The position numbers and the translations under genes were made by a program. 64,000 bases of DNA from Henricia sp. BOLD:AAB3569 (taxonomy: Eukaryota; Echinodermata; Asteroidea; Spinulosida; Echinasteridae). The notes under the pieces were generated by a model. That model did no database searches. It had not been told where the DNA came from and worked only from the letters and a program-made list of their open reading frames with translations. This document shows positions 5,451 to 50,560 of this stretch, piece after piece. Numbering within the stretch: the first letter of the stretch is position 1; each line of letters starts with the position of its first letter. The stretch covers positions 186,001 to 250,000 of the forward strand of contig JBBELK010000481.1 of assembly GCA_037783545.1 (NCBI GenBank), read 5' to 3'.

Positions 5451-5452
5451 GA

Positions 5453-5572
5453 TGGGTCATTCCGTGTCAATTCAACGAGCTTTTGGACCTGACCATCACG
5501 GATTGAAATGAAATTTAGTGTGCTGATTGGACTCCTTGAGAAACCCCATGAACTGAAATTTTATGTAATTCG
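5453..5572 (+). repeat. Left 120-bp terminal inverted repeat
   Basis: Compared base by base with the reverse complement of 50,441-50,560: about five mismatches in 120 positions and no indel. Begins TGGGTCATTCCGTGTCAATT and ends TTATGTAATTCG. Confidence 0.93.
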
Positions 5573-6338
5573 GTCAATTAATTTTTTAGATACGGGTCAA
5601 CGAACTTTGGACTAATTAGCATGACCTGCTATGCTTGGACAATTATATCTCTAAAGGTAATGGACCTACAGAGATAAACTTAACATCATTTTAAAGCTCT
5701 TGAAATGGCCTTCATTTTGTAAGATAACATCAAAATTGTATCTCGTACCACAAACAAGTTATGTGAATTTTTAACCTTTGACCTTGATTTGCAAAAATGC
5801 GTATTTGTCAAAATGCGTAATTTTTTTTTATTTGTAAGGAACATTTCCAGAAAGATTTGGGATGGGCACTCTTACAGTTTGAGTTCCGATAATTTAAACA
5901 TTAAATAACATGTAAATACCATGTAAATACCATGCAAATAACATGTAACTGTGTATGTACATGTGCTGTACATGGCATTTACATGTTATTTAATGTTTAA
6001 ATTATGGGAACTCAAAAACTGTAAGAGTGCCCATCCCAAATCTTTCTGGAAATGTTCTTTACATCTTTAGCTAACAAATAATAAAAAATTACGCATTTTG
6101 ACAAATACGCACTTTTGCAAATCAAGGTCAAACGTTATAAATTCAAATAACTTGTTTGTGGTACGAGATACAATTTTGATGTTACATTATAAAATAAAGG
6201 CCATTTCAAGAGCTTTAAAATGATGTAAAGTTTATCTCTGTAGGTCCATTACTTTTAGAGATATAATTGTTCAAACATAGCAGGTTATGCTAATTAGTCC
6301 AAAGTTCGTTGAACCGTATCTCAAAAATTAATTGACCC
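5572..6338. repeat. 767-bp palindrome (arms ~370 bp)
   Basis: The left arm from GGTCAATTAATTTT (5572) pairs with the right arm ending AAAAATTAATTGACC (about 6337). The arms track each other through TGGACTAATTAGCAT, the TTATATCTCTAAA region, CTCGTACCACAAACAAGTTAT and GATTTGGGATGGGCACTC, with a few percent mismatch and one ~12-bp indel near 5840/6070. The centre (about 5930-5980) is built of ACATGTAA/TACATG-type short repeats. It is present only at the left end of the large element. It could be a nested foldback MITE or the ancestral core of the element. No reading frame. Confidence 0.88.
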
Positions 6339-9300
6339 AAACATTAGACTTTTTAAATTTCATATTTAATTTCCCAGATAAGCATTCAAGGTCAAATTCA
6401 AGGAATATACTCTATGGGCTCTAAGCAACGTTTCCTGCAGTTTTGAAGAAAATCGAAATTAGAAAATGTTTGGCCAAAACTTTAAAAATTTTCTCAAAAA
6501 TTTACTTTTTGAAAATGTCTTAGTAATGACTCCTTATGAAAATTTAGCCCGTTTGGAACCTATTTCCAAGAGAAAATGGAAATTTTGGCCAAACATTTGA
6601 CTTTTTCCTGAAAATCTTAAATTTTATAAATTTCATATTTCATTTCCCAGATAAGCATTCAAGGTCAAATTCAAGGAATATCCTCTATGGGCTCTAAGCA
6701 ACGTTTCTTGCAGTTTTGAAGAAAATCGAAATTATAAAATGTTTAGCCAAAACTTTAACAATTTTTCTCAAAAATTGACTTTTTGAAAATGCCTTATGAA
6801 AATTTAGCCCGTTTGGAACCTATTTCCAAGAGAAAGTGGAAATTTTGGCCAAACATTTGACTTTTTCCTAAAAATCTTAAACTTTATAAATTTCATATTT
6901 CATTTCCCAGATAAGCATTCAAGGTCAAATTCAAGGAATATCCTCTATGGGCTCTAAGCAACGTTTCCTGCAGTTTTGAAGAAAATCGAAATTAGAAAAT
7001 GTTTGGCCAAAACTTTAAAATTTTTCTCAAAAATTTACTTTTTGAAAATGTCTTAGTAATGACTCCTTATGAAAATTTAGCCCGTTTGGAACCTATTTCC
7101 AAGAGAAAGTGGACATTTTGGCCAAACATTTGACTTTTTCCTGAAAATCTTAAATTTTATAAATTTCATATTTCATTTCCCAGATAAGCATTCGAGGTCA
7201 AATTCAAGGAATATCCTCTATGGGCTCTAAGCAACGTTTCCTGCAGTTTTGAAGAAAATCGAAATTAGAAAATGTTTGGCCAAAACTTTAAAATTTTTCT
7301 CAAAAATTTACTTTTTGAAAATGTCTTAGTAATGACTCCTTATGAAAATTTAGCCCGTTTGGAACCTATTTCCAAGAGAAAATGGAAATTTTGGCCAAAC
7401 ATTTGACTTTTTCCTCAATATCTTAAATTTTATAAATTTCATATTTCATTTCCCAGATAAGCATTCAAGGTCAAATTCAAGGAATATCCTCTATGGGCTC
7501 TAAGCAACGTTTCCTGCAGTTTTGAAGAAAATCGAAATTAGAAAATGTTTGGCCAAAACTTTGAAAATTTTCTCAAAAATTTACTTTTTGAAAATGTCTT
7601 AGTAATGACTCCTTATGAAAATTTAGCCCGTTTGGAACCTATTTCCAAGAGAAAATGGAAATTTTGGCCAAACATTTGACTTTTTCCTCAATATCTTCAA
7701 TTTTATAAATTTCATATTTCATTTCCCAGATAAGCATTCCAGGTCAAATTCAAGGAATATCCTCTATGGGCTCTAAGCAACGTTTCCTGCAGTTTTGAAG
7801 AAAATCGAAATTAGAAAATGTTTGGCAAAAACTTAAAAATTTTTCTCAAAAATGTACTTTTTGAAAATGTCTTAGTAATGACTCCTTATGAAAATTTAGC
7901 CCGTTTGGAACCTATTTCCAAGAGAAAGTGGACATTTTGGCCAAACATTTGACTTTTTCCTCAATATCTTAAATTTTATAAATTTCATATTTCATTTCCC
8001 AGATAAGCATTCAAGGTCAAATTCAAGGAATATCCTCTATTGGTTCTAGGCAACGTTTCCTGCAGTTTTGAAGAAAATCGAAATTAGAAAATGTTTGGCC
8101 AAAACTTTAAAAATCTTGCAAGGGGTTAGTCCAGCAATTTTTCTCAAAAATTGACTTTTTGAAAATGCCTTAGTAATGACTCCTTATGAAAATTTAGCCC
8201 GTTTGGAACCTATTTCCAAGAGAAAGTGGACATTTTGGCCAAACATTTGACTTTTTCCTGAAAATCTTAAATTTTATAAATTTCATATTTCATTTCCCAG
8301 ATAAGCATTCAAGGTCAAATTCAAGGAATATCCTCTTTTGAAGAAAATCGAAATTAGAAAATGTTTGGCCAAAACTTTGAAAATTTTCTCAAAAATTTAC
8401 TTTTTGAAAATGTCTTAGTAATGACTCCTTATGAAAATTTAGCCCGTTTGGAACCTATTTCCAAGAGAAAATGGAAATTTTGGCCAAACATTTGACTTTT
8501 TCCTCAATATCTTCAATTTTATAAATTTCATATTTCATTTCCCAGATAAGCATTCCAGGTCAAATTCAAGGAATATCCTCTATGGGCTCTAAGCAACGTT
8601 TCCTGCAGTTTTGAAGAAAATCGAAATTAGAAAATGTTTGGCAAAAACTTAAAAATTTTTCTCAAAAATGTACTTTTTGAAAATGTCTTAGTAATGACTC
8701 CTTATGAAAATTTAGCCCGTTTGGAACCTATTTCCAAGAGAAAGTGGACATTTTGGCCAAACATTTGACTTTTTCCTCAATATCTTAAATTTTATAAATT
8801 TCATATTTCATTTCCCAGATAAGCATTCAAGGTCAAATTCAAGGAATATCCTCTATTGGTTCTAGGCAACGTTTCCTGCAGTTTTGAAGAAAATCGAAAT
8901 TAGAAAATGTTTGGCCAAAACTTTAAAAATCTTGCAAGGGGTTAGTCCAGCAATTTTTCTCAAAAATTGACTTTTTGAAAATGCCTTAGTAATGACTCCT
9001 TATGAAAATTTAGCCCGTTTGGAACCTATTTCCAAGAGAAAGTGGACATTTTGGCCAAACATTTGACTTTTTCCTGAAAATCTTAAATTTTATAAATTTC
9101 ATATTTCATTTCCCAGATAAGCATTCAAGGTCAAATTCAAGGAATATCCTCTATGGGCTCTAAGCAACGTTTCCTGCAGTTTTGAAGAAAATCGAAATTA
9201 GAAAATGTTTGGCCAAAACTTTAAAATTTTTCTCAAAAATTGACTTTTTGAAAATGTCTTAGTAATGACTCCTTATGAAAATTTAGCCCGTTTGGAACCT

Positions 9301-12274
9301 ATTTCCAAGAGAAAATGGACATTTTGGCCAAACATTTGACTTTTTCCTCAATATCTTAAATTTTATAAATTTCATATTTCATTTCCCAGATAAGCATTCC
9401 AGGTCAAATTCAAGGAATATCCTCTATGGGCTCTAAGCAACGTTTCCTGCAGTTTTGAAGAAAATCGAAATTAGAAAATGTTTGGCCAAAACTTAAAAAT
9501 TTTTCTCAAAAATTGACTTTTTCAAAATGTCTTAGTAATGACTCCTTATGAAAATTTAGCCCGTTTGGAACCTATTTCCAAGAGAAAGTGGACATTTTGG
9601 CCAAACATTTGACTTTTTCCTCAATATCTTAAATTTTATAAATTTCATATTTCATTTCCCAGATAAGCATTCAAGGTCAAATTCAAGGAATATCCTCTAT
9701 GGGCTCTAAGCAACGTTTCCTGCAGTTTTAAAGAAAATCGAAATTAGAAAATGTTTGGCCAAAACTTGAAAAATCTTGCAAGGGGTTAGTCCAGCAATTT
9801 TTCTCAAAAATTGACTTTTTGAAAATGCCTTAGTAATGACTCCTTATGAAAATTTAGCCCGTTTGGAACCTATTTCCAAGAGAAAGTGGACATTTTGGCC
9901 AAACATTTGACTTTTTCCTGAAAATCTTAAATTTTATAAATTTCATATTTCATTTCCCAGATAAGCATTCAAGGTCAAATTCAAGGAATATCCTCTATGG
10001 GCTCTAAGCAACGTTTCCTGCAGTTTTGAAGAAAATCGAAATTATAAAATGTTTGGCCAAAACTTAAAAATTTTTCTCAAAAATTTACTTTTTGAAAATG
10101 TCTTAGTAATGACTCCTTATGAAAATTTAGCCCGTTTGGAACCTATTTCCAAGAGAAAGTGGACATTTTGGCCAAACATTTGACTTTTTCCTCAATATCT
10201 TAAATTTTATAAATTTCATATTTCATTTCCCAGATAAGCATTCAAGGTCAAATTCAAGGAATATCCTCTATGGGCTCTAAGCAACGTTTCCTGCAGTTTT
10301 GAAGAAAATCGAAATTAGAAAATGTTTGGCCAAAACTTGAAAAAATCTTGCAAGGGGTTAGTCCAGCAATTTTTCTCAAAAATTGACTTTTTGAAAATGC
10401 CTTAGTAATGACTCCTTATGAAAATTTAGCCCGTTTGGAACCTATTTCCAAGAGAAAGTGGACATTTTGGCCAAACATTTGACTTTTTCCTGAAAATCTT
10501 AAATTTTATAAATTTCATATTTCATTTCCCAGATAAGCATTCAAGGTCAAATTCAAGGAATATCCTCTATGGGCTCTAAGCAACGTTTCCTGCAGTTTTG
10601 AAGAAAATCGAAATTATAAAATGTTTGGCCAAAACTTAAAAATTTTTCTCAAAAATTTACTTTTTGAAAATGTCTTAGTAATGACTCCTTATGAAAATTT
10701 AGCCCGTTTGGAACCTATTTCCAAGAGAAAGTGGACATTTTGGCCAAACATTTGACTTTTTCCTCAATATCTTAAATTTTATAAATTTCATATTTCATTT
10801 CCCAGATAAGCATTCAAGGTCAAATTCAAGGAATATCCTCTATGGGCTCTAAGCAACGTTTCCTGCAGTTTTAAAGAAAATCGAAATTAGAAAATGTTTG
10901 GCCAAAACTTTAAAAATCTTGCAAGGGGTTAGTCCAGCAATTTTTCTCAAAAATTGACTTTTTGAAAATGCCTTAGTAATGACTCCTAATGAAAATTTAG
11001 CCCGTTTGGAACCTATTACCAAGACAAAGTGGAAATTTTTGCCAAACATTTGACTTTTTCCTGAAAATCTTAAACTTTATAAATTTCATATTTCATTTCC
11101 CAGATAAGCATTCAAGGTCAAATTCAAGGAATATCCTCTATTGGCTCTAGGCAACGTTTCCTGCAGTTTTGAAGAAAATCGAAATTAGAAAATGTTTGGC
11201 CAAAACTTTAAAAATCTTGCAAGGGGTTAGTCCAGCAATTTTTCTCAAAAATTGACTTTTGGAAAATGCCTTAGTAATGACTCCTTATGAAAATTTAGCC
11301 CGTTTGGAACCTATTTCCAAGAGAAAGTGGACATTTTGGCCAAACATTTGACTTTTTCCTGAAAATCTTAAATTTTATAAATTTCATATTTCATTTCCCA
11401 GATAAGCATTCAAGGTCAAATTCAAGGAATATCCTCTATGGGCTCTAAGCAACGTTTCCTGCAGTTTTGAAGAAAATCGAAATTATAAAATGTTTGGCCA
11501 AAACTTAAAAATTTTCTCAAAAATTTACTTTTTGAAAATGTCTTAGTAATGACTCCTTATGAAAATTTAGCCCGTTTGGAACCTATTTCCAAGAGAAAAT
11601 GGAAATTTTGGCCAAACATTTGACTTTTTCCTCAATATCTTCAATTTTATAAATTTCATATTTCATTTCCCAGATAAGCATTCCAGGTCAAATTCAAGGA
11701 ATATCCTCTATGGGCTCTAAGCAACGTTTCCTGCAGTTTTGAAGAAAATCGAAATTAGAAAATGTTTGGCAAAAACTTAAAAATTTTTCTCAAAAATGTA
11801 CTTTTTGAAAATGTCTTAGTAATGACTCCTTATGAAAATTTAGCCCGTTTGGAACCTATTTCCAAGAGAAAGTGGACATTTTGGCCAAACATTTGAGTTT
11901 TTCCTCAATATCTTAAATTTTATAAATTTCATATTTCATTTCCCAGATAAGCATTCAAGGTCAAATTCAAGGAATATCCTCTATTGGTTCTAGGCAACGT
12001 TTCCTGCAGTTTTGAAGAAAATCGAAATTAGAAAATGTTTGGCCAAAACTTTAAAAATCTTGCAAGGGGTTAGTCCAGCAATTTTTCTCAAAAATTGACT
12101 TTTTGAAAATGCCTTAGTAATGACTCCTTATGAAAATTTAGCCCGTTTGGAACCTATTTCCAAGAGAAAGTGGACATTTTGGCCAAACATTTGACTTTTT
12201 CCTGAAAATCTTAAATTTTATAAATTTCATATTTCATTTCCCAGATAAGCATTCAAGGTCAAATTCAAGGAATA

Positions 12275-15200
12275 TCCTCTTTTGAAGAAAATCGAAATTA
12301 GAAAATGTTTGGCCAAAACTTTGAAAATTTTCTCAAAAATTTACTTTTTGAAAATGTCTTAGTAATGACTCCTTATGAAAATTTAGCCCGTTTGGAACCT
12401 ATTTCCAAGAGAAAATGGAAATTTTGGCCAAACATTTGACTTTTTCCTCAATATCTTCAATTTTATAAATTTCATATTTCATTTCCCAGATAAGCATTCC
12501 AGGTCAAATTCAAGGAATATCCTCTATGGGCTCTAAGCAACGTTTCCTGCAGTTTTGAAGAAAATCGAAATTAGAAAATGTTTGGCAAAAACTTAAAAAT
12601 TTTTCTCAAAAATGTACTTTTTGAAAATGTCTTAGTAATGACTCCTAATGAAAATTTAGCCCGTTTGGAACCTATTACCAAGACAAAGTGGAAATTTTTG
12701 CCAAACATTTGACTTTTTCCTGAAAATCTTAAACTTTATAAATTTCATATTTCATTTCCCAGATAAGCATTCAAGGTCAAATTCAAGGAATATCCTCTAT
12801 TGGCTCTAGGCAACGTTTCCTGCAGTTTTGAAGAAAATCGAAATTAGAAAATGTTTGGCCAAAACTTTAAAAATCTTGCAAGGGGTTAGTCCAGCAATTT
12901 TTCTCAAAAATTGACTTTTGGAAAATGCCTTAGTAATGACTCCTTATGAAAATTTAGCCCGTTTGGAACCTATTTCCAAGAGAAAGTGGACATTTTGGCC
13001 AAACATTTGACTTTTTCCTGAAAATCTTAAATTTTATAAATTTCATATTTCATTTCCCAGATAAGCATTCAAGGTCAAATTCAAGGAATATCCTCTATGG
13101 GCTCTAAGCAACGTTTCCTGCAGTTTTGAAGAAAATCGAAATTATAAAATGTTTGGCCAAAACTTAAAAATTTTCTCAAAAATTTACTTTTTGAAAATGT
13201 CTTAGTAATGACTCCTTATGAAAATTTAGCCCGTTTGGAACCTATTTCCAAGAGAAAATGGAAATTTTGGCCAAACATTTGACTTTTTCCTCAATATCTT
13301 CAATTTTATAAATTTCATATTTCATTTCCCAGATAAGCATTCCAGGTCAAATTCAAGGAATATCCTCTATGGGCTCTAAGCAACGTTTCCTGCAGTTTTG
13401 AAGAAAATCGAAATTAGAAAATGTTTGGCAAAAACTTAAACATTTTTCTCACAAATTTACTTTTTGAAAATGTCTTAGTAATGACTCCTTATGAAAATTT
13501 AGCCCGTTTGGAACCTATTTCCAAGAGAAAGTGGACATTTTGGCCAAACATTTGACTTTTTCCTCAATATCTTAAATTTTATAAATTTCATATTTCATTT
13601 CCCAGATAAGCATTCAAGGTCAAATTCAAGGAATATCCTCTATGGGCTCTAAGCAACGTTTCCTGCAGTTTTAAAGAAAATCAAAATTAGAAAATGTTTG
13701 GCCAAAACTTTAAAAATCTTGCAAGGGGTTAGTCCAGCAATTTTTCTCAAATTGACTTTTTGAAAATGCCTTAGTAATGACTCCTTATGAAAATTTAGCC
13801 CGTTTGGAACCTATTTCCAAGAGAAAATGGAAATTTTGGCCAAACATTTGACTTTTTCCTCAAAATCTTAAATTTTATAAATTTCATATTTCATTTCCCA
13901 GATAAGCATTCAAGGTCAAATTCAAGGAATATCCTCTTTTGAAGAAAATCGAAATTAGAAAATGTTTGGCCAAAACTTTGAAAATTTTCTCAAAAATTTA
14001 CTTTTTGAAAATGTCTTAGTAATGACTCCTTATGAAAATTTAGCCCGTTTGGAACCTATTTCCAAGAGAAAATGGAAATTTTGGCCAAACATTTGACTTT
14101 TTCCTCAATATCTTCAATTTTATAAATTTCATATTTCATTTCCCAGATAAGCATTCCAGGTCAAATTCAAGGAATATCCTCTATGGGCTCTAAGCAACGT
14201 TTCCTGCAGTTTTGAAGAAAATCGAAATTAGAAAATGTTTGGCAAAAACTTAAAAATTTTTCTCAAAAATGTACTTTTTGAAAATGTCTTAGTAATGACT
14301 CCTAATGAAAATTTAGCCCGTTTGGAACCTATTACCAAGACAAAGTGGAAATTTTTGCCAAACATTTGACTTTTTCCTGAAAATCTTAAACTTTATAAAT
14401 TTCATATTTCATTTCCCAGATAAGCATTCAAGGTCAAATTCAAGGAATATCCTCTATTGGCTCTAGGCAACGTTTCCTGCAGTTTTGAAGAAAATCGAAA
14501 TTAGAAAATGTTTGGCCAAAACTTTAAAAATCTTGCAAGGGGTTAGTCCAGCAATTTTTCTCAAAAATTGACTTTTGGAAAATGCCTTAGTAATGACTCC
14601 TTATGAAAATTTAGCCCGTTTGGAACCTATTTCCAAGAGAAAGTGGACATTTTGGCCAAACATTTGACTTTTTCCTGAAAATCTTAAATTTTATAAATTT
14701 CATATTTCATTTCCCAGATAAGCATTCAAGGTCAAATTCAAGGAATATCCTCTATGGGCTCTAAGCAACGTTTCCTGCAGTTTTGAAGAAAATCGAAATT
14801 ATAAAATGTTTGGCCAAAACTTAAAAATTTTCTCAAAAATTTACTTTTTGAAAATGTCTTAGTAATGACTCCTTATGAAAATTTAGCCCGTTTGGAACCT
14901 ATTTCCAAGAGAAAATGGAAATTTTGGCCAAACATTTGACTTTTTCCTCAATATCTTCAATTTTATAAATTTCATATTTCATTTCCCAGATAAGCATTCC
15001 AGGTCAAATTCAAGGAATATCCTCTATGGGCTCTAAGCAACGTTTCCTGCAGTTTTGAAGAAAATCGAAATTAGAAAATGTTTGGCAAAAACTTAAAAAT
15101 TTTTCTCAAAAATGTACTTTTTGAAAATGTCTTAGTAATGACTCCTTATGAAAATTTAGCCCGTTTGGAACCTATTTCCAAGAGAAAGTGGACATTTTGG

Positions 15201-15600
15201 CCAAACATTTGAGTTTTTCCTCAATATCTTAAATTTTATAAATTTCATATTTCATTTCCCAGATAAGCATTCAAGGTCAAATTCAAGGAATATCCTCTAT
15301 TGGTTCTAGGCAACGTTTCCTGCAGTTTTGAAGAAAATCGAAATTAGAAAATGTTTGGCCAAAACTTTAAAAATCTTGCAAGGGGTTAGTCCAGCAATTT
15401 TTCTCAAAAATTGACTTTTTGAAAATGCCTTAGTAATGACTCCTTATGAAAATTTAGCCCGTTTGGAACCTATTTCCAAGAGAAAGTGGACATTTTGGCC
15501 AAACATTTGACTTTTTCCTGAAAATCTTAAATTTTATAAATTTCATATTTCATTTCCCAGATAAGCATTCAAGGTCAAATTCAAGGAATATCCTCTTTTG
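12275..15600. repeat. Higher-order repeat block, ~1,657-bp period
   Basis: A diagnostic monomer lacking about 28 bp (TCCTCT joined directly to TTTGAAGAAAATCG) occurs at 12,275, 13,932 and 15,591, spacings of 1,657 and 1,659 bp, i.e. six monomers. The same deletion also occurs at 8,331, so the block shares ancestry with the 8-kb region. Confidence 0.75.
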
Positions 15601-18600
15601 AAGAAAATCGAAATTAGAAAATGTTTGGCCAAAACTTTGAAAATTTTCTCAAAAATTTACTTTTTGAAAATGTCTTAGTAATGACTCCTTATGAAAATTT
15701 AGCCCGTTTGGAACCTATTTCCAAGAGAAAATGGAAATTTTGGCCAAACATTTGACTTTTTCCTCAATATCTTCAATTTTATAAATTTCATATTTCATTT
15801 CCCAGATAAGCATTCCAGGTCAAATTCAAGGAATATCCTCTATGGGCTCTAAGCAACGTTTCCTGCAGTTTTGAAGAAAATCGAAATTAGAAAATGTTTG
15901 GCAAAAACTTAAAAATTTTTCTCAAAAATGTACTTTTTGAAAATGTCTTAGTAATGACTCCTTATGAAAATTTAGCCCGTTTGGAACCTATTTCCAAGAG
16001 AAAGTGGACATTTTGGCCAAACATTTGACTTTTTCCTCAATATCTTAAATTTTATAAATTTCATATTTCATTTCCCAGATAAGCATTCAAGGTCAAATTC
16101 AAGGAATATCCTCTATTGGTTCTAGGCAACGTTTCCTGCAGTTTTGAAGAAAATCGAAATTAGAAAATGTTTGGCCAAAACTTTAAAAATCTTGCAAGGG
16201 GTTAGTCCAGCAATTTTTCTCAAAAATTGACTTTTGGAAAATGCCTTAGTAATGACTCCTTATGAAAATTTAGCCCGTTTGGAACCTATTTCCAAGAGAA
16301 AGTGGACATTTTGGCCAAACATTTGACTTTTTCCTGAAAATCTTAAATTTTATAAATTTCATATTTCATTTCCCAGATAAGCATTCAAGGTCAAATTCAA
16401 GGAATATCCTCTATGGGCTCTAAGCAACGTTTCCTGCAGTTTTGAAGAAAATCGAAATTAGAAAATGTTTGTCCAAAACTTTAAAATTTTTCTCAAAAAT
16501 TGACTTTTTGAAAATGTCTTAGTAATGACTCCTTATGAAAATTTAGCCCGTTTGGAACCTATTTCCAAGAGAAAATGGAAATTTTGGCCAAACATTTGAC
16601 TTTTTCCTCAATATCTTAAATTTTATAAATTTCATATTTCATTTCCCAGATAAGCATTCAAGGTCAAATTCAAGGAATATCCTCTATGGGCTCTAAGCAA
16701 CGTTTCCTGCAGTTTTGAAGAAAATCGAAATTAGAAAATGTTTGGCCAAAACTTGAAAAATCTTGCAAGGGGTTAGTCCAGCAATTTTTCTCAAAAATTG
16801 ACTTTTTGAAAATGCCTTAGTAATGACTCCTAATGAAAATTTAGACCGTTTGGAACCTATTTCCAAGAGAAAGTGGACATTTTGGCCAAACATTTGACTT
16901 TTTCCTCAATATCTTAAATTTTATAAATTTCATATTTCATTTCCCAGATAAGCATTCCAGGTCAAATTCAAGGAATATCCTCTATGGGCTCTAAGCAACG
17001 TTTCCTGCAGTTTTGAATAAAATCGAAATTAGAAAATGTTTGGCCAAAACTTAAAAATTTTTCTCAAAAATTTACTTTTTCAAAATTTCTTAGTAATGAC
17101 TCCTTATGAAAATTTAGCCCGTTTGGAACCTATTTCCAAGAGAAAGTGGACATTTTGGCCAAACATTTGACTTTTTCCTCAATATCTTAAATTTTATAAA
17201 TTTCATATTTCATTTCCCAGATAAGCATTCAAGGTCAAATTCAAGGAATATCCTCTATGGGCTCTAAGCAACGTTTCCTGCAGTTTTGAAGAAAATCGAA
17301 ATTATAAAATGTTTGGCCAAAACTTAAATTTTTTTCTCAAAAATTTACTTTTTGAAAATGTCTTAGTAATGACTCCTTATGAAAATTTAGCCCGTTTGGA
17401 ACCTATTTCCAAGAGAAAGTGGACATTTTGGCCAAACATTTGACTTTTTCCTCAATATCTTAAATTTTATAAATTTCATATTTCATTTCCCAGATAAGCA
17501 TTCAAGGTCAAATTCAAGGAATATCCTCTATGGGCTCTAAGCAACGTTTCCTGCAGTTTTAAAGAAAATCGAAATTAGAAAATGTTTGGCCAAAACTTTA
17601 AAAATCTTGCAAGGGGTTAGTCCAGCAATTTTTCTCAAAAATTGACTTTTTGAAAATGCCTTAGTAATGACTCCTAATGAAAATTTAGCCCGTTTGGAAC
17701 CTATTACCAAGACAAAGTGGAAATTTTTGCCAAACATTTGACTTTTTCCTGAAAATCTTAAACTTTATAAATTTCATATTTCATTTCCCAGATAAGCATT
17801 CAAGGTCAAATTCAAGGAATATCCTCTATTGGCTCTAGGCAACGTTTCCTGCAGTTTTGAAGAAAATCGAAATTAGAAAATGTTTGGCCAAAACTTTAAA
17901 AATCTTGCAAGGGGTTAGTCCAGCAATTTTTCTCAAAAATTGACTTTTGGAAAATGCCTTAGTAATGACTCCTTATGAAAATTTAGCCCGTTTGGAACCT
18001 ATTTCCAAGAGAAAGTGGACATTTTGGCCAAACATTTGACTTTTTCCTGAAAATCTTAAATTTTATAAATTTCATATTTCATTTCCCAGATAAGCATTCA
18101 AGGTCAAATTCAAGGAATATCCTCTATGGGCTCTAAGCAACGTTTCCTGCAGTTTTGAAGAAAATCGAAATTATAAAATGTTTGGCCAAAACTTAAAAAT
18201 TTTTCTCAAAAATTTACTTTTTGAAAATGTCTTAGTAATGACTCCTTATGAAAATTTAGCCCGTTTGGAACCTATTTCCAAGAGAAAGTGGACATTTTGG
18301 CCAAACATTTGACTTTTTCCTCAATATCTTAAATTTTATAAATTTCATATTTCATTTCCCAGATAAGCATTCAAGGTCAAATTCAAGGAATATCCTCTAT
18401 GGGCTCTAAGCAACGTTTCCTGCAGTTTTGAAGAAAATCGAAATTATAAAATGTTTGGCCAAAACTTAAAATTTTTTCTCAAAAATTTACTTTTTGAAAA
18501 TGTCTTAGTAATGACTCCTTATGAAAATTTAGCCCGTTTGGAACCTATTTCCAAGAGAAAGTGGACATTTTGGCCAAACATTTGACTTTTTCCTCAATAT

Positions 18601-18976
18601 CTTAAATTTTATAAATTTCATATTTCATTTCCCAGATAAGCATTCAAGGTCAAATTCAAGGAATATCCTCTATGGGCTCTAAGCAACGTTTCCTGCAGTT
18701 TTAAAGAAAATCGAAATTAGAAAATGTTTGGCCAAAACTTTAAAAATCTTGCAAGGGGTTAGTCCAGCAATTTTTCTCAAAAATTGACTTTTTGAAAATG
18801 CCTTAGTAATGACTCCTAATGAAAATTTAGCCCGTTTGGAACCTATTACCAAGACAAAGTGGAAATTTTGGCCAAACATTTGACTTTTTCCTCAATATCT
18901 TAAATTTTATAAATTTCATATTTCATTTCCCAGATAAGCATTCAAGGTCAAATTCAAGGAATATCCTCTATGGGCT

Positions 18977-21900: not shown

Positions 21901-22450
21901 TTTGAAGAAAATCGAAATTAGAAAATGTTTGGCCAAAACTTTAAAAATCTTGCAAGGGGTTAGTCCAGCAATTTTTCTCAAAAATTGACTTTTGGAAAAT
22001 GCCTTAGTAATGACTCCTTATGAAAATTTAGCCCGTTTGGAACCTATTTCCAAGAGAAAGTGGACATTTTGGCCAAACATTTGACTTTTTCCTGAAAATC
22101 TTAAATTTTATAAATTTCATATTTCATTTCCCAGATAAGCATTCAAGGTCAAATTCAAGGAATATCCTCTATGGGCTCTAAGCAACGTTTCCTGCAGTTT
22201 TGAAGAAAATCGAAATTATAAAATGTTTGGCCAAAACTTAAAAATTTTTCTCAAAAATTTACTTTTTGAAAATGTCTTAGTAATGACTCCTTATGAAAAT
22301 TTAGCCCGTTTGGAACCTATTTCCAAGAGAAAGTGGACATTTTGGCCAAACATTTGACTTTTTCCTCAATATCTTAAATTTTATAAATTTCATATTTCAT
22401 TTCCCAGATAAGCATTCAAGGTCAAATTCAAGGAATATCCTCTATGGGCT
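18977..22450. repeat. Higher-order repeat block, 868-bp period (3 monomers)
   Basis: A monomer variant with CTCCTAATGAAAATTTAG and ACCTATTACCAAGACAAAG recurs at offsets of 869, 868 and 868 bp (same landmark at 18,977, 19,846, 20,714 and 21,582). Each unit is the box-plus-TAATG monomer, a TTGGCTCTAGG monomer, and an ATTATAAAATG monomer. Two units share a one-base shortening (GACTTTTCCTG), so they were copied as a block. Confidence 0.85.
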
Positions 22451-28100: not shown

Positions 28101-28520
28101 AAATGCCTTAGTAATGACTCCTTATGAAAATTTAGCCCGTTTGGAACCTATTACCAAGAGAAAATGGACATTTTGGCCAAACATTTGACTTTTTCCTGAA
28201 AATCTTAAATTTTATAAATTTCATATTTCATTTCCCAGATAAGCATTCAAGGTCAAATTCAAGGAATATCCTCTATGGGCTCTAAGCAACGTTTCCTGCA
28301 GTTTTAAAGAAAATCAAAATTAGAAAATGTTTGGCCAAAACTTTAAAAAATTTCTCAAAAATTGACTTTTTGAAAATGCCTTAGTAATGACTCCTTATGA
28401 AAATTTAGCCCGTTTGGAACCTATTACCAAGAGAAAATGGACATTTTGGCCAAACATTTGACTTTTTCCTGAAAATCTTAAATTTTATAAATTTCATATT
28501 TCATTTCCCAGATAAGCATT
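25150..28520. repeat. Higher-order repeat block, 1,661-bp period (6 monomers)
   Basis: The rare variant CAAGGTGAAATTC occurs at about 25,745 and 27,406, 1,661 bp apart, and flanking monomers match in order (CTCACAAATTT types, box type with the short CTCAAATTGAC, then several TAAAGAAAATCAAAATTAG types). The block ends at an irregular junction near 28,524-28,556. Confidence 0.7.
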
Positions 28521-28649
28521 CAAGGTCATTTTGGCCAAAGGTCATTTTGGCCAAACATTTGACTTTTTCCTGAAAATCTTAAATTTTATAAATTTCATAT
28601 TTCATTTCCCAGATAAGCATTCAAGGTCAAATTCAAGGAATATCCTCTA

Positions 28650-38600: not shown

Positions 38601-41600
38601 AGGGGTTAGTCCAGCAATTTTTCTCAAAAATTGACTTTTTGAAAATGCCTTAGTAATGACTCCTTATGAAAATTTAGCCTGTTTGGAACCTATTTCCAAG
38701 AGAAAGTGGACATTTTGGCCAAACATTTGACTTTTTCCTGAAAATCTTAAATTTTATAAATTTCATATTTCATTTCCCAGATAAGCATTCAAGGTCAAAT
38801 TCAAAGAATATCCTCTATGGGCTCTAAGCAACGTTTCCTGCAGTTTTGAAGAAAATCGAAATTAGAAAATGTTTGGCCAAAACTTAAACATTTTTCTCAC
38901 AAATTTACTTTTTGAAAATGTCTTAGTAATGACTCCTTATGAAAATTTAGCCCGTTTGGAACCTATTTCCAAGAGAAAGTGGACATTTTGGCCAAACATT
39001 TGACTTTTTCCTCAATATCTTAAATTTTATAAATTTCATATTTCATTTTCCAGATAAGCATTCAAGGTCAAATTCAAGGAATATCCTCTATGGGCTCTAA
39101 GCAACGTTTCCTGCAGTTTTGAAGAAAATCAAAATTAGAAAATGTTTGGCCAAAACTTAAAAATTTTTCTCAAAAATTTACTTTTTGAAAATGTCTTAGT
39201 AATGACTCCTTATGAAAATTTAGCCCGTTTGGAACCTATTTCCAAGAGAAAGTGGACATTTTGGCCAAACATTTGACTTTTTCCTCAATATCTTAAATTT
39301 TATAAATTTCATATTTCATTTCCCAGATAAGCATTCAAGGTCAAATTCAAGGAATATCCTCTATGGGCTCTAAGCAACGTTTCCTGCAGTTTTGAAGAAA
39401 ATCAAAATTAGAAAATGTTTGGCCAAAACTTAAAAAATTTTCTCAAAAATTTACTTTTTGAAAATGTCTTAGTAATGACTCCTTATGAAAATTTATCCCG
39501 TTTGGAACCTATTTCCAAGAGAAAGTGGACATTTTGGCCAAACATTTGACTTTTTCCTCAATATCTTAAATTTTATAAATTTCATATTTCATTTCCCAGA
39601 TAAGCATTCAAGGTCAAATTCAAGTAATATCCTCTATGGGCTCTAAGCAACGTTTCCTGCAGTTTTGAAGAAAATCGAAATTAGAAAATGTTTGGCCAAA
39701 ACTTGAAAAAATCTTGCAAGGGGTTAGTCCAGCAATTTTTCTAAAAAATTGACTTTTTGAAAATGCCTTAGTAATGACTCCTTATGAAAATTTATCCCGT
39801 TTGGAACCTATTTCCAAGAGAAAGTGGACATTTTGGCCAAACATTTGACTTTTTCCTCAATATCTTAAATTTTATAAATTTCATATTTCATTTCTCAGAT
39901 AAGCATTCAAGGTGAAATTCAAGGAAAATGCTATATGGGCTCTAAGCAACGTTTCCTGCAGTTTTGAAGAAAATCGAAATTAGAAAATGTTTGGCCAAAA
40001 CTTAAACATTTTTCTCAAAAATTGACTTTTTGAAAATGTCTTAGTAATGACTCCTTATGAAAATTTAGCCCGTTTGGAACCTATTTCCAAGAGAAAGTGG
40101 ACATTTTGGCCAAACATTTGACTTTTTCCTCAATATCTTAAATTTTATAAATTTCATATTTCATTTCCCAGATAAGCATTCAAGGTCAAATTCAAGGAAT
40201 ATCCTCTATGGGCTCTAAGCAACGTTTCCTGCAGTTTTGAAGAAAATCGAAATTAGAAAATGTTTGGCCAAAACTTGAAAAATCTTGCAAGGGGTTAGTC
40301 CAGCAATTTTTCTAAAAAATTGACTTTTTGAAAATGCCTTAGTAATGACTCCTTATGAAAATTTAGCCCGTTTGGAACCTATTTCCAAGAGAAAGTGGAC
40401 ATTTTGGCCAAACATTTGACTTTTTCCTGAAAATCTTCAATTTTATAAATTTCATATTTCATTTCTCAGATAAGCATTCAAGGTGAAATTCAAGGAAAAT
40501 CCTATATGGGCTCTAAGCAACGTTTCCTGCAGTTTTGAAGAAAATCGAAATTAGAAAATGTTTGGCCAAAACTTTAAAAATCTTGCAAGGGGTTAGTCCA
40601 GCAATTTTTCTCAAATTGACTTTTTGAAAATGCCTTAGTAATGACTCCTAATGAAAATTTAGCCCGTTTGGAACCTATTTCCAAGAGAAAATGGAAATTT
40701 TGGCAAAACATTTGACTTTTTCCTCAATATCTTAAATTTTATAAATTTCATATTTCATTTCCCAGATAAGCATTCAAGGTCAAATTCAAGGAATATCCTC
40801 TATGGGCTCTAAGCAACGTTTCCTGCAGTTTTGAAGAAAATCGAAATTAGAAAATGTTTGGCCAAAACTTGAAAAAATCTTGCAAGGGGCTAGTCCAGCA
40901 ATTTTTCTCAAAAATTGACTTTTTGAAAATGCCTTAGTAATGACTCCTTATGAAAATTTAGCCTGTTTGGAACCTATTTCCAAGAGAAAGTGGACATTTT
41001 GGCCAAACATTTGACTTTTTCCTGAAAATCTTAAATTTTATAAATTTCATATTTCATTTCCCAGATAAGCATTCAAGGTCAAATTCAAGGAATATCCTCT
41101 ATGGGCTCTAAGCAACGTTTCCTGCAGTTTTGAAGAAAATCGAAATTATAAAATGTTTGGCCAAAACTTAAAAATTTTTCTCAAAAATTTACTTTTTGAA
41201 AATGTCTTAGTAATGACTCCTTATGAAAATTTAGCCCGTTTGGAACCTATTTCCAAGAGAAAGTGGACATTTTGGCCAAACATTTGACTTTTTCCTCAAT
41301 ATCTTAAATTTTATAAATTTCATATTTCATTTCCCAGATAAGCATTCAAGGTCAAATTCAAGGAATATCCTCTATGGGCTCTAAGCAACGTTTCCTGCAG
41401 TTTTGAAGAAAATCGAAATTAGAAAATGTTTGGCCAAAACTTAAACATTTTTCTCAAAAATTGACTTTTTGAAAATGTCTTAGTAATGACTCCTTATGAA
41501 AATTTAGCCCGTTTGGAACCTATTTCCAAGAGAAAGTGGACATTTTGGCCAAACATTTGACTTTTTCCTCAATATCTTAAATTTTATAAATTTCATATTT

Positions 41601-42900
41601 CATTTCCCAGATAAGCATTCAAGGTCAAATTCAAGGAATATCCTCTATGGGCTCTAAGCAACGTTTCCTGCAGTTTTGAAGAAAATCGAAATTAGAAAAT
41701 GTTTGGCCAAAACTTGAAAAATCTTGCAAGGGGTTAGTCCAGCAATTTTTCTAAAAAATTGACTTTTTGAGAATGCCTTAGTAATGACTCCTTATGAAAA
41801 TTTAGCCCGTTTGGAACCTATTTCCAAGAGAAAGTGGACATTTTGGCCAAACATTTGACTTTTTCCTGAAAATCTTCAATTTTATAAATTTCATATTTCA
41901 TTTCTCAGATAAGCATTCAAGGTGAAATTCAAGGAAAATCCTATATGGGCTCTAAGCAACGTTTCCTGCAGTTTTGAAGAAAATCGAAATTAGAAAATGT
42001 TTGGCCAAAACTTTAAAAATCTTGCAAGGGGTTAGTCCAGCAATTTTTCTCAAATTGACTTTTTGAAAATGCCTTAGTAATGACTCCTTATGAAAATTTA
42101 GCCCGTTTGGAACCTATTTCCAAGAGAAAATGGAAATTTTGGCAAAACATTTGACTTTTTCCTCAATATCTTAAATTTTATAAATTTCATATTTCATTTC
42201 CCAGATAAGCATTCAAGGTCAAATTCAAGGAATATCCTCTATGGGCTCTAAGCAACGTTTCCTGCAGTTTTGAAGAAAATCGAAATTAGAAAATGTTTGG
42301 CCAAAACTTGAAAAAATCTTGCAAGGGGTTAGTCCAGCAATTTTTCTCAAAAATTGACTTTTTGAAAATGCCTTAGTAATGACTCCTTATGAAAATTTAG
42401 CCTGTTTGGAACCTATTTCCAAGAGAAAGTGGACATTTTGGCCAAACATTTGACTTTTTCCTGAAAATCTTAAATTTTATAAATTTCATATTTCATTTCC
42501 CAGATAAGCATTCAAGGTCAAATTCAAGGAATATCCTCTATGGGCTCTAAGCAACGTTTCCTGCAGTTTTGAAGAAAATCGAAATTATAAAATGTTTGGC
42601 CAAAACTTAAAAATTTTTCTCAAAAATTTACTTTTTGAAAATGTCTTAGTAATGACTCCTTATGAAAATTTAGCCCGTTTGGAACCTATTTCCAAGAGAA
42701 AGTGGACATTTTGGCCAAACATTTGACTTTTTCCTCAATATCTTAAATTTTATAAATTTCATATTTCATTTCCCAGATAAGCATTCAAGGTCAAATTCAA
42801 GGAATATCCTCTATGGGCTCTAAGCAACGTTTCCTGCAGTTTTGAAGAAAATCGAAATTAGAAAATGTTTGGCCAAAACTTGAAAAATCTTGCAAGGGGT
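35690..42900. repeat. Higher-order repeat block, 1,439-bp period (5 monomers)
   Basis: Several rare variants repeat at exactly 1,439 bp: AAATGCTATATGGG at 36,501 and 37,940; TTTAGCCTG at 36,666/38,105, 37,238/38,677 and 40,961/42,400; CCTATATGGG at 40,501 and 41,940. An intervening stretch around 39-40 kb breaks the phase. Confidence 0.8.
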
Positions 42901-45900
42901 TAGTCCAGCAATTTTTCTAAAAAATTGACTTTTTGAAAATGCCTTAGTAATGACTCCTTATGAAAATTTAGCCCGTTTGGAACCTATTTCCAAGAGAAAA
43001 TGGAAATTTTGGCCAAACATTTGACTTTTTCCTCAATATCTTAAATTTTATAAATTTCATATTTCATTTCCCAGATAAGCATTCAAGGTCAAATTCAAGG
43101 AATATCCTCTATGGGCTCTAAGCAACGTTTCCTGCAGTTTTGAAGAAAATCGAAATTAGAAAATGTTTGGCCAAAACTTGAAAAAATCTTGCAAGGGGTT
43201 AGTCCAGCAATTTTTCTCAAAAATTGACTTTTTGAAAATGCCTTAGTAATGACTCCTTATGAAAATTTAGCCTGTTTGGAACCTATTTCCAAGAGAAAGT
43301 GGACATTTTGGCCAAACATTTGACTTTTTCCTGAAAATCTTAAATTTTATAAATTTCATATTTCATTTCCCAGATAAGCATTCAAGGTCAAATTCAAGGA
43401 ATATCCTCTATGGGCTCTAAGCAACGTTTCCTGCAGTTTTGAAGAAAATCGAAATTAGAAAATGTTTGGCCAAAACTTAAACATTTTTCTCAAAAATTGA
43501 CTTTTTGAAAATGTCTTAGTAATGACTCCTTATGAAAATTTAGCCCGTTTGGAACCTATTTCCAAGAGAAAGTGGACATTTTGGCCAAACATTTGACTTT
43601 TTCCTCAATATCTTAAATTTTATAAATTTCATATTTCATTTCCCAGATAAGCATTCAAGGTCAAATTCAAGGAATATCCTCTATGGGCTCTAAGCAACGT
43701 TTCCTGCAGTTTTGAAGAAAATCGAAATTAGAAAATGTTTGGCCAAAACTTGAAAAATCTTGCAAGGGGTTAGTCCAGCAATTTTTCTCAAATTGACTTT
43801 TTGAAAATGCCTTAGTAATGACTCCTAATGAAAATTTAGCCCGTTTGGAACCTATTTCTAAGAGAAAATGGAAATTTTGGCAAAACATTTGACTTTTTCC
43901 TCAATATCTTAAATTTTATAAATTTCATATTTCATTTCCCAGATAAGCATTCAAGGTCAAATTCAAGGAATATCCTCTATGGGCTCTAAGCAACGTTTCC
44001 TGCAGTTTTGAAGAAAATCGAAATTAGAAAATGTTTGGCCAAAACTTGAAAAAATCTTGCAAGGGGCTAGTCCAGCAATTTTTCTCAAAAATTGACTTTT
44101 TGAAAATGCCTTAGTAATGACTCCTTATGAAAATTTAGCCTGTTTGGAACCTATTTCCAAGAGAAAGTGGACATTTTGGCCAAACATTTGACTTTTTCCT
44201 GAAAATCTTCAATTTTATAAATTTCATATTTCATTTCTCAGATAAGCATTCAAGGTGAAATTCAAGGAAAATCCTATATGGGCTCTAAGCAACGTTTCCT
44301 GCAGTTTTGAAGAAAATCGAAATTAGAAAATGTTTGGCCAAAACTTTAAAAATCTTGCAAGGGGTTAGTCCAGCAATTTTTCTCAAATTGACTTTTTGAA
44401 AATGCCTTAGTAATGACTCCTTATGAAAATTTAGCCCGTTTGGAACCTATTTCCAAGAGAAAATGGAAATTTTGGCAAAACATTTGACTTTTTCCTCAAT
44501 ATCTTAAATTTTATAAATTTCATATTTCATTTCCCAGATAAGCATTCAAGGTCAAATTCAAGGAATATCCTCTATGGGCTCTAAGCAACGTTTCCTGCAG
44601 TTTTGAAGAAAATCGAAATTAGAAAATGTTTGGCCAAAACTTGAAAAAATCTTGCAAGGGGTTAGTCCAGCAATTTTTCTCAAAAATTGACTTTTTGAAA
44701 ATGCCTTAGTAATGACTCCTTATGAAAATTTAGCCTGTTTGGAACCTATTTCCAAGAGAAAGTGGACATTTTGGCCAAACATTTGACTTTTTCCTGAAAA
44801 TCTTAAATTTTATAAATTTCATATTTCATTTCCCAGATAAGCATTCAAGGTCAAATTCAAGGAATATCCTCTATGGGCTCTAAGCAACGTTTCCTGCAGT
44901 TTTGAAGAAAATCGAAATTATAAAATGTTTGGCCAAAACTTAAAAATTTTTCTCAAAAATTTACTTTTTGAAAATGTCTTAGTAATGACTCCTTATGAAA
45001 ATTTAGCCCGTTTGGAACCTATTTCCAAGAGAAAGTGGACATTTTGGCCAAACATTTGACTTTTTCCTCAATATCTTAAATTTTATAAATTTCATATTTC
45101 ATTTCCCAGATAAGCATTCAAGGTCAAATTCAAGGAATATCCTCTATGGGCTCTAAGCAACGTTTCCTGCAGTTTTGAAGAAAATCGAAATTAGAAAATG
45201 TTTGGCCAAAACTTGAAAAATCTTGCAAGGGGTTAGTCCAGCAATTTTTCTAAAAAATTGACTTTTTGAAAATGCCTTAGTAATGACTCCTTATGAAAAT
45301 TTAGCCCGTTTGGAACCTATTTCCAAGAGAAAATGGAAATTTTGGCCAAACATTTGACTTTTTCCTCAATATCTTAAATTTTATAAATTTCATATTTCAT
45401 TTCCCAGATAAGCATTCAAGGTCAAATTCAAGGAATATCCTCTATGGGCTCTAAGCAACGTTTCCTGCAGTTTTGAAGAAAATCGAAATTAGAAAATGTT
45501 TGGCCAAAACTTGAAAAAATCTTGCAAGGGGTTAGTCCAGCAATTTTTCTCAAAAATTGACTTTTTGAAAATGCCTTAGTAATGACTCCTTATGAAAATT
45601 TAGCCTGTTTGGAACCTATTTCCAAGAGAAAGTGGACATTTTGGCCAAACATTTGACTTTTTCCTGAAAATCTTAAATTTTATAAATTTCATATTTCATT
45701 TCCCAGATAAGCATTCAAGGTCAAATTCAAGGAATATCCTCTATGGGCTCTAAGCAACGTTTCCTGCAGTTTTGAAGAAAATCGAAATTAGAAAATGTTT
45801 GGCCAAAACTTAAACATTTTTCTCAAAAATTGACTTTTTGAAAATGTCTTAGTAATGACTCCTTATGAAAATTTAGCCCGTTTGGAACCTATTTCCAAGA

Positions 45901-48900
45901 GAAAGTGGACATTTTGGCCAAACATTTGACTTTTTCCTCAATATCTTAAATTTTATAAATTTCATATTTCATTTCCCAGATAAGCATTCAAGGTCAAATT
46001 CAAGGAATATCCTCTATGGGCTCTAAGCAACGTTTCCTGCAGTTTTGAAGAAAATCGAAATTAGAAAATGTTTGGCCAAAACTTGAAAAATCTTGCAAGG
46101 GGTTAGTCCAGCAATTTTTCTCAAATTGACTTTTTGAAAATGCCTTAGTAATGACTCCTTATGAAAATTTAGCCCGTTTGGAACCTATTTCCAAGAGAAA
46201 ATGGAAATTTTGGCAAAACATTTGACTTTTTCCTCAATATCTTAAATTTTATAAATTTCATATTTCATTTCCCAGATAAGCATTCAAGGTCAAATTCAAG
46301 GAATATCCTCTATGGGCTCTAAGCAACGTTTCCTGCAGTTTTGAAGAAAATCGAAATTAGAAAATGTTTGGCCAAAACTTGAAAAAATCTTGCAAGGGGT
46401 TAGTCCAGCAATTTTTCTCAAAAATTGACTTTTTGGAAATGCCTTAGTAATGACTCCTTATGCAAATTTAGCCTGTTTGGAACCTATTTCCAAGAGAAAG
46501 TGGACATTTTGGCCAAACATTTGACTTTTTCCTGAAAATCTTAAATTTTATAAATTTCATATTTCATTTCCCAGATAAGCATTCAAGGTCAAATTCAAGG
46601 AATATCCTCTATGGGCTCTAAGCAACGTTTCCTGCAGTTTTGAAGAAAATCGAAATTATAAAATGTTTGGCCAAAACTTAAAAATTTTTCTCAAAAATTT
46701 ACTTTTTGAAAATGTCTTAGTAATGACTCCTTATGAAAATTTAGCCCGTTTGGAACCTATTTCCAAGAGAAAGTGGACATTTTGGCCAAACATTTGACTT
46801 TTTCCTCAATATCTTAAATTTTATAAATTTCATATTTCATTTCCCAGATAAGCATTCAAGGTCAAATTCAAGGAATATCCTCTATGGGCTCTAAGCAACG
46901 TTTCCTGCAGTTTTGAAGAAAATCGAAATTAGAAAATGTTTGGCCAAAACTTGAAAAATCTTGCAAGGGGTTAGTCCAGCAATTTTTCTCAAATTGACTT
47001 TTTGAAAATGCCTTAGTAATGACTCCTTATGAAAATTTAGCCCGTTTGGAACCTATTTCCAAGAGAAAATGGAAATTTTGGCCAAACATTTGACTTTTTC
47101 CTCAAAATCTTAAATTTTATAAATTTCATATTTCATTTCCCAGATAAGCATTCAAGGTCAAATTCAAGGAATATCCTCTATGGGCTCTAAGCAACGTTTC
47201 CTGCAGTTTTGAAGAAAATCGAAATTAGAAAATGTTTGGCCAAAACTTAAACATTTTTCTCACAAATTTACTTTTTGAAAATGCCTTAGTAATGACTCCT
47301 TATGAAAATTTAGCCTGTTTGGAACCTATTTCCAAGAGAAAGTGGACATTTTGGCCAAACATTTGACTTTTTCCTGAAAATCTTAAATTTTATAAATTTC
47401 ATATTTCATTGCACAGATAAGCATTCAAGGTCAAATTCAAGGAATATCCTCTATGGGCTCTAAGCAACGTTTCCTGCAGTTTTGAAGAAAATCGAAATTA
47501 GAAAATGTTTGGCCAAAACTTAAAAATTTTTCTCAAAAATTTACTTTTTGAAAATGTCTTAGTAATGACTCCTTATGAAAATTTAGCCCGTTTGGAACCT
47601 ATTTCCAAGAGAAAGTGGACATTTTGGCCAAACATTTGACTTTTTCCTCAATATCTTAAATTTTATAAATTTCATATTTTATTTCCCAGATAAGCATTCA
47701 AGGTCAAATTCAAGGAATATCCTCTATGGGCTCTAAGCAACGTTTCCTGCAGTTTTGAAGAAAATCGAAATTAGAAAATGTTTGGCCAAAACTTGAAAAA
47801 TCTTGCAAGGGGTTAGTCCAGCAATTTTTCTAAAAAATTGACTTTTTGAAAATGCCTTAGTAATGACTCCTTATGAAAATTTAGCCCGTTTGGAACCTAT
47901 TTCCAAGAGAAAATGGAAATTTTTGCCAAACATTTGACTTTTTCCTCAATATCTTAAATTTTATAAATTTCATATTTCATTTCCCAGATAAGCATTCAAG
48001 GTCAAATTCAAGGAATATCCTCTATGGGCTCTAAGCAACGTTTCCTGCAGTTTTGAAGAAAATCGAAATTAGAAAATGTTTGGCCAAAACTTGAAAAAAT
48101 CTTGCAAGGGGTTAGTCCAGCAATTTTTCTAAAAAATTGACTTTTTGAAAATGCCTTAGTAATGACTCCTTATGAAAATTTAGCCCGTTTGGAACCTATT
48201 TCCAAGAGAAAGTGGACATTTTGGCCAAACATTTGACTTTTTCCTGAAAATCTTCAATTTTATAAATTTCATATTTCATTTCTCAGATAAGCATTCAAGG
48301 TGAAATTCAAGGAAAATCCTATATGGGCTCTAAGCAACGTTTCCTGCAGTTTTGAAGAAAATCGAAATTAGAAAATGTTTGGCCAAAACTTTAAAAATCT
48401 TGCAAGGGGTTAGTCCAGCAATTTTTCTCAAATTGACTTTTTGAAAATGCCTTAGTAATGACTCCTTATGAAAATTTAGCCCGTTTGGAACCTATTTCCA
48501 AGAGAAAGTGGACATTTTGGCCAAACATTTGACTTTTTCCTGAAAATCTTCAATTTTATAAATTTCATATTTCATTTCTCAGATAAGCATTCAAGGTGAA
48601 ATTCAAGGAAAATCCTATATGGGCTCTAAGCAACGTTTCCTGCAGTTTTGAAGAAAATCGAAATTAGAAAATGTTTGGCCAAAACTTTAAAAATTTTCTC
48701 AAAAATTTACTTTTTGAAAATGTCTTAGTAATGACTCCTTATAAAAATTTAGCCCGTTTGGAACCTATTTCCAAGAGAAAATGGACATTTTGGCCAAACA
48801 TTTGACTTTTTCCTGAAAATCTTAAACTTTATAAATTTCATATTTCATTTCCCAGATAAGCATTCAAGGTCAAATTCAAGGAATATCCTCTATTGGCTCT

Positions 48901-50440
48901 AGGCAACGTTTCCTGCAGTTTTGAAGAAAATCGAAATTAGAAAATGTTTGGCCAAAACTTTAAAATTTTTCTCAAAAATTTACTTTTTGAAAATGTCTTA
49001 GTAATGACTCCTTATGAAAATTTAGCCCGTTTGGAACCTATTTCCAAGAGAAAATGGAAATTTTGGCCAAACATTTGACTTTTTCCTCAAAATTTTAAAT
49101 TTTATAAATTTCATATTTCATTTCCGAGATAAGCATTCAAGGTCAAATTCAAGGAATATCCTCTATGGGCTCTAAGCAACGTTTCCTGCAGTTTTGAAGA
49201 AAATCGAAATTAGAAAATGTTTGGCCAAAACTTTAAAATTGACTTGTTTAAAATGCCTTAGTAATGACTCCTTATGAAAATTTAGCCCGTTTGGAACTTA
49301 TTTCCAAGAGAAAGTGGAAATTTTGGCCAAACATTTGACTTTTTCCTGAAAATCTTGAATGTTATAAATTTCATATTTCATTTCCCAGATAAGCATTCAA
49401 GGTCAAATTCAAGGAATATCCTCTATGGGCTCTAAGCAACGTTTCCTGCAGTTTTTAAGAAAATCGAAATTAGAAAATGTTTGGCCAAAACTTTAAAATC
49501 TTGTAAGGGGTTAGTCTTTTTGAAAATGCCTTAGTAATGACTCCTTATTAAATTTAGCCCGTTTGGAACCTATTTCCAAGAGAAAGTGGAAATTTTTGCC
49601 AAACATTTGACTTTTTCCTGAAAATCTTAAACTTTATAAATTTCATATTTCATTTCCCAGATAAGCATTCAAGGTCAAATTCAAGGAATATCCTCTATTG
49701 GCTCTAGGCAACGTTTCCTGCAGTTTTTAAGAAAATCGAAATTAGAAAATGTTTGGCCAAAACTTTAAAATCTTGTAAGGGGTTAGTCTTTTTGAAAATG
49801 CCTTAGTAATGACTCCTTATTAAATTTAGCCCGTTTGGAACCTATTTCCAAGAGAAAGTGGAAATTTTTGCCAAACATTTGACTTTTTCCTGAAAATCTT
49901 AAACTTTATAAATTTCATATTTCATTTCCCAGATAAGCATTCAAGGTCAAATTCAAGGAATATCCTCTATTGGCTCTAGGCAACGTTTCCTGCAGTTTTG
50001 AAGAAAATCGAAATTAGAAAATGTTTGGCCAAAACTTTAAAATCTTGTAAGGGGTTAGTCTTTTTGAAAATGCCTTAGTAATGACTCCTTATTAAATTTA
50101 GCCCGTTTGGAACCTATTTCCAAGAGAAAGTGGAAATTTTGGCCAAACATTTGACTTTTTCCTGAAAATCTTAAACTTTATAAATTTCATATTTCATTTC
50201 CCAGATAAGCATTCAAGGTCAAATTAAAGGAATATCCTCTATTTGCTCTAAGCAACGTTTCCTGCAGTTTTGAAGAAAATCGAAATTATAAAATGTTTTG
50301 CCAAAACTTGAAAAATCTTGCAAGGGGTTAGTCCAGCAATTTTTCTCAAAAATTGACTTTTTGAAAATGCCTTAGTAATGACTCCTTATGAAAATTTAGC
50401 CCGTTTCAAACCTATTTCCAAGAGAAAGTGGAAATTTTGG

Positions 50441-50560
50441 CGAATTACATAAAATTTCAGTTCTCGGGGTTTTTCAATGAGTCCAATCAGCACACCAAAT
50501 TTCATTTCAATCCGTGATGGTCAGGTCCAAAAGCTCGTTGAATTGACACGGAATGACCCA
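50441..50560 (-). repeat. Right 120-bp terminal inverted repeat
   Basis: Reverse complement of 5453-5572 with about five mismatches. It directly follows a satellite monomer cut in the middle of TTTTGGCC, and ends GGAATGACCCA. The palindrome seen beside the left TIR is absent here. Confidence 0.93.

Follow-up and report, generated by a model that had tools for sequence, protein, structure and literature searches.

In Drosophila virilis, as the report on Tetris and TIR-220 describes, satellites were born in a foldback element and their repeat resembles part of its terminal inverted repeat (TIR) (PMC4079207). Fibre-FISH in the same report revealed long Tetris arrays flanked by two end domains (PMC4079207). 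For Xenopus, a review cites Scalvenzi and Pollet for the capture of tandem repeats by a MITE, miDNA4, and credits them with proposing that capture comes first and expansion later (PMC12628747). In Tribolium, satellite sequence is described together with TIRs and target duplications in the TCAST transposon-like elements (PMC3411249). Among molluscs, the monomers at the edge of a satellite are reported to decay for lack of unequal crossover (PMC5139131).

The locus described here lies in what we call the window, the whole stretch of 64,000 nucleotides that was analysed, and it resembles each of these systems in part. Like Tetris/TIR-220, it holds tandem repeats between the inverted ends of a foldback element; however, the TIR-220 repeats are described from many copies of the element and have 37 bp in common with its own TIR, whereas the repeat of the window is unrelated to the arm and was seen in one MITE copy (PMC4079207). 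In miDNA4 the satellite is, according to the review, a feature of the family, whereas a single carrier copy is known here (PMC12628747). The association of satellite, TIRs, and target duplications is shared with TCAST, in which, unlike in the window, satellite segments form part of the TIRs of a dispersed family whose members do not exceed 1,181 bp (PMC3411249). The junctions are abrupt, as reported for mollusc satellites, one of which has its junctions within its palindrome, but those cases are monomers and short arrays, whereas the window offers both ends of one 44-kb array (PMC5139131). The literature that we searched held no long array in a single MITE with whole-unit ends, which is not proof of absence.

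Most of what is inferred about how satellites arrive at new places comes from broken junctions. A palindromic MITE serves as a ruler, as each arm shows the sequence of the other and the target before insertion is therefore known to the base. At this locus a satellite block has entered in phase and leaving no scar, and the site is a clean test locus for circle insertion versus template switching. We consider the nested capture of a pre-existing satellite by a MITE within a LINE to be the probable reading (roughly 0.8); the locus has the look of repeats nested with unusual tidiness, not of a giant mobile element of a new type.

A MITE with a satellite inside a LINE

An earlier note, made from the letters of the window, had described inverted ends of about 96% identity. 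A BLAST comparison of the window with itself bears this out, pairing 5453-5572 with 50441-50560 over 120 bp at 95.8% (E 8e-50), and removal of the target site duplications (TSDs) sets the element at 5454-50559 (Table 1). The same comparison places a palindrome of 89% at 5572-6337, so that the left end exceeds a TIR and the greater part of a foldback MITE precedes the array. The tandem array was also said to run right up to the right TIR, and head-to-tail monomers indeed occupy 6338-50441, with the MITE resuming at 50442. The arrangement looks like a LINE holding a MITE that holds a captured satellite.

Table 1. Coordinates of the nested repeats, in positions of the window
Feature	Position	Strand	Basis
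LINE (non-LTR) fragment, downstream part of split reverse transcriptase	4609..5449	-	RVT_1 match; homologous to L061-L063
Left target site duplication AGAT	5450..5453	.	One AGAT in 3/3 paralogs
Left MITE part (left arm, centre, most of right arm)	5454..6337	+	Palindrome; aligned with uninterrupted L004/L047, L046
Satellite array, 44,104 bp, units A + B, bordered by TTTGG/CCAAA	6338..50441	+	Ends ambiguous by 1 bp
MITE right arm, outer 118 bp (right TIR)	50442..50559	+	Continues left part, no base lost or gained
Right target site duplication AGAT	50560..50563	.	One AGAT in paralogs
LINE fragment, upstream part of split reverse transcriptase	50564..50860	-	Minus-strand translation with NYRPISLTSVPCKPLEHII; homologous to L061-L063

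The target site could be read directly from related LINE copies. All three paralogs examined (L061-L063) are continuous across the site with one AGAT, and the two LINE flanks of the window, joined with one AGAT, match these paralogs, each of which carries GTGTGACAGATAATATG (3/3). This empty site confirms the suggestion that a LINE reading frame was split by the whole insert. The left flank has a weak minus-strand match to RVT_1 at 5012-5353, which at 23.7 bits (E 4.6e-5) stays below the Pfam cut-off of 29.6, and a Pfam search with a 44-aa piece of the right LINE fragment gave no match. No second, allele-like copy of the LINE flank was present among the best 40 of 1,537 candidates.

The host element is an ordinary MITE

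Excising 6338-50441 leaves a MITE of 1,004 bp, running from T to A, whose restored junction, TTGACC joined to GAATTAC, is exactly what the opposite arm predicts. An uninterrupted copy, L004, aligns from end to end with the two MITE parts of the window combined. The proposal of one 45-kb insertion as a unit finds no support in this comparison, as the insert minus its 44,104 bp of satellite is a complete MITE matched by uninterrupted copies.

The family is abundant. The outermost 27 bp occur 461 times with at most one mismatch (226 on the plus and 235 on the minus strand; none for the reversed control), and a genome search with the left end gave at least 43 matches with the best 40 of 991 candidates scored. 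Counts from our DNA searches are lower bounds, with only the top candidates scored (40 of 991, 4 of 1,320, 40 of 180, and 40 of 1,537). Complete copies of 1,004 and 1,016 bp were found. The 13 MITE loci fetched (L046-L058) yielded nine elements with paired ends, 281-1,364 bp long; L048, L051, L053, and L057 have no partner end within 6 kb and were excluded from the TSD count. Perfect 4-bp TSDs flank six of the nine, and the other three are deletion derivatives of 281-293 bp, two of them with identical flanks. The window copy conforms, with its 4-bp AGAT and the empty site in the LINE paralogs. The host is thus a high-copy, palindromic, non-autonomous MITE of about 1 kb, short and TIR-bearing, with target duplications of a fixed 4 bp.

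These data bear on the idea of a 45-kb TIR transposon carrying the satellite as internal cargo born from the MITE, as in Tetris. The array is enclosed by TIRs and a TSD, as that idea demands, but 21 of the 22 inverted TIR pairs among the places listed span 366-1,637 bp, the remaining one spanning 19.4 kb on contig C187, and the arm is unrelated to the monomer (see below); we regard such a transposon as extremely improbable. What stands of the original proposal is an array within a TIR element that lies in a LINE with a target duplication; what finds no support is a family of 45-kb units, the family being a MITE of about 1 kb.

Two further places caught our attention. At C187:17347-36739 the same TIR occurs in opposite orientation at the ends of the 19.4-kb interval, which may represent another nested case, or else a pair of unrelated elements. 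At C158:2015540-2015930, three TIR ends of like orientation follow one another at 182-bp spacing and may form a small tandem array of the MITE end.

The satellite array

Units A and B each match 157 times in the array, always on the plus strand, giving a head-to-tail series of roughly 157 monomers with two parts each, and a comparison of the array with itself gave no match on the minus strand. Unit A, mostly 158 bp, alternates with unit B, mostly 115 or 138-140 bp, and Tandem Repeats Finder reports periods of 273 and 298 bp, among others. Within the array there are 285 exact copies of the palindrome TTTGGCCAAA, or 313 if one mismatch is allowed, and every GGCC of the array falls within this palindrome.

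The 151 full A units are on average 97.65% identical to one another. They are 96.2-97.5% identical to the A units of related arrays on contigs C462 and C420, and 94.6% identical to those of a second array on the contig of the window (C481). A homogeneous head-to-tail array with relatives at several loci is what defines satellite DNA. At the right edge, similarity to the consensus is 95.5-98.1% for the final five full A units, as compared with 94.8-100% for interior units, so that edge decay is mild. The first unit at the left end is an A of 137 bp that is 95.6% like the reference A over the aligned length. The higher-order structure claimed for the array is present as local patterns of units, although it is modest and varies from place to place: among seven stretches, mean unit similarity peaks at a lag of 3 in two, of 6 in two, and of 5, 8, and 11 in one each.

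An assembly artefact in which the array was misjoined to the MITE has to be weighed here. Contig C5 ends inside a related array, which indicates that such arrays strain the assembly. However, the MITE parts are complementary to the base and the TSDs match, and a misjoin would hardly give both; we therefore judge this explanation highly unlikely. The length of the array in the assembly could nevertheless be wrong. Exact direct repeats in the array reach 2,018 bp at most, a length that long reads would span.

Probable capture of the satellite

A Tetris-like origin makes the repeat a derivative of the sequence of the element. The best score between MITE arm and monomer is 22, reached by an 11-bp word, while 200 shuffled comparisons gave a mean of 24.2 and a 95th percentile of 30. 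The parallel with Tetris drawn in the earlier note is not supported here, as the arm bears no significant similarity to the monomer. Derivation of the monomer from the MITE arm was ruled out as a candidate, its score falling below the shuffled mean.

Nor does the satellite appear to be a property of the family. On neither strand did any of the other 13 MITE loci fetched, which total 92 kb, match unit A or unit B. The right junction pattern has one match in the genome at up to two mismatches (control 0), and the left pattern has one exact match, that of the window itself, with seven further matches at two mismatches versus three for the reversed control. A genome search with the TIR had been proposed as a way to the seed element, and it did uncover small relatives free of satellite, namely the MITE of about 1 kb; relatives with TIR plus monomers did not appear among the loci fetched. 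The note had itself named the failure to find the TIR with satellite elsewhere as grounds for abandoning its view, and this is what we found within the sequence searched, with no satellite at 13 of 13 loci and single exact junctions. A family of large MITE-satellite units was likewise rejected, in view of copies of about 1 kb, single exact junctions, and satellite-free MITE loci. It is well supported that an ordinary MITE captured a satellite that existed independently.

In the order proposed by Scalvenzi and Pollet, the MITE would have taken up a monomer, or a few, ahead of its transposition or in the course of it and carried them into the LINE, where the array expanded later. The capture may have come before or after the entry of the MITE into the LINE, and the array could have expanded in place in either case. 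Nevertheless, the assembly contains no other exact MITE-satellite junction and the other MITE loci lack both units, which makes this sequence of events rather unlikely. It overlaps with our preferred reading and differs from it in order, just as template switching, considered below, differs in the joining step.

How the satellite joined the MITE

The capture looks base-precise, with no MITE base lost or duplicated. When the two ends of the array are closed, TTTTGGC meets CAAACATT, which is the canonical border between B and A. The two array ends thus share one phase and fall at the palindrome TTTGG/CCAAA, the boundary of the half-monomers; moving the cut by one base, a shared C, would place it in the middle of that palindrome. 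Random cuts would give ends that agree in phase to within 1 bp in about 1% of cases (3 of 298 phases).

Whole units with a closed phase at both ends are what the insertion of a circle would leave, and template switching predicts the same. In the latter case, repair would have copied satellite into the MITE arm at TTGACCGAA versus TTGGCCAAA and returned at the same motif. The junctions do lie in a stretch where the MITE site and the A/B border match at 7 of 12 positions in the best of three registers. However, 8.9% of random site-phase pairs reach this similarity, and as read from the letters the junctions are one base off the matching register. Since random pairs reach it so often, the likeness carries little weight for or against template switching at a short similarity, which we consider doubtful as the origin of the array.

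Circle insertion followed by expansion in place fits best, with template switching as its main rival. We propose that a palindromic MITE of about 1 kb, from a high-copy family, inserted into the LINE with a 4-bp duplication, and that a pre-existing satellite block was joined into its right arm, 118 bp from the end, two steps that the structure of the locus itself displays. Ends that are base-exact and in phase suggest that the block most likely arrived in circular form, as whole monomers opened at the TTTGGCCAAA border; we give entry as a circle about an even chance. The array would then have grown and been homogenised in place by unequal exchange, as the local unit patterns suggest. Several observations sit uneasily with this account: the weak likeness between the MITE site and the A/B border, the seven matches to the left junction pattern at two mismatches, the array edges elsewhere that lie away from palindromes, the mild edge decay, and the closest relatives of the A units, which lie within the window array for 131 of 151 but on C462 for the other 20.

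Related arrays elsewhere in the genome

The 26-bp core motif of unit A has 574 matches in the genome with at most one mismatch (reversed control 0). The second array on C481 extends over about 48.8 kb (approximately 858,969-907,749), with satellite at all seven probes placed between 860 and 887.5 kb; its left edge falls at position 124 of B and its right edge at position 67 of A. In this array (858969-907749), B units are often missing and A is joined to A near the palindrome. The array on C5 runs for about 20 kb, from about 495.4 kb to the contig end at 515,866, and its one visible edge decays gradually in unrelated sequence.

The edges on C481 and C5 lie away from the palindromes, which argues that the TTTGG/CCAAA border is no general integration site. 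One could imagine a scarless satellite mobility in which this palindrome serves as release and joining point and whole-unit blocks move without loss or duplication of the target, although we think it very unlikely.

The arrays on C462 and C420 lie within homologous flanks that are 93-98% alike (4.7 kb at 98.2%). Because of this likeness they appear to be haplotigs or a segmental duplication and were counted as one locus. In both (L042-L045; C462:256001-274000 and C420:188001-206000), satellite blocks of opposite orientation surround a shared non-satellite core of 0.93 kb on C462 or 9.2 kb on C420, with more diverged monomers outside. Diverged monomers beside the C462 array have short matches of 73-86% identity on at least 15 further contigs, among the best 40 of 180 candidates. 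The presence of MITE sequence at other satellite arrays was considered and rejected, the stretches fetched and compared (L039-L045, L091, and L092), which left of the second C481 array covered 68 bp of flank, giving no match.

Other repeats in the window

To the right of the LINE lies a retroelement remnant (55692-58121, minus strand), which we take to be Ty3/gypsy-like, with separate open reading frames matching Integrase_H2C2 (E 1e-16) and RVT_1 (E 1.9e-21). On the minus strand the integrase part lies upstream of the RVT_1 part; integrase upstream of reverse transcriptase is an unusual order for Ty3/gypsy. Several inverted repeat pairs (77-95%) surround G-rich runs at 52.5 and 53.5 kb within 52125-54557, and a palindrome of about 200 bp (82%) at 61634-61833 is possibly another foldback MITE.
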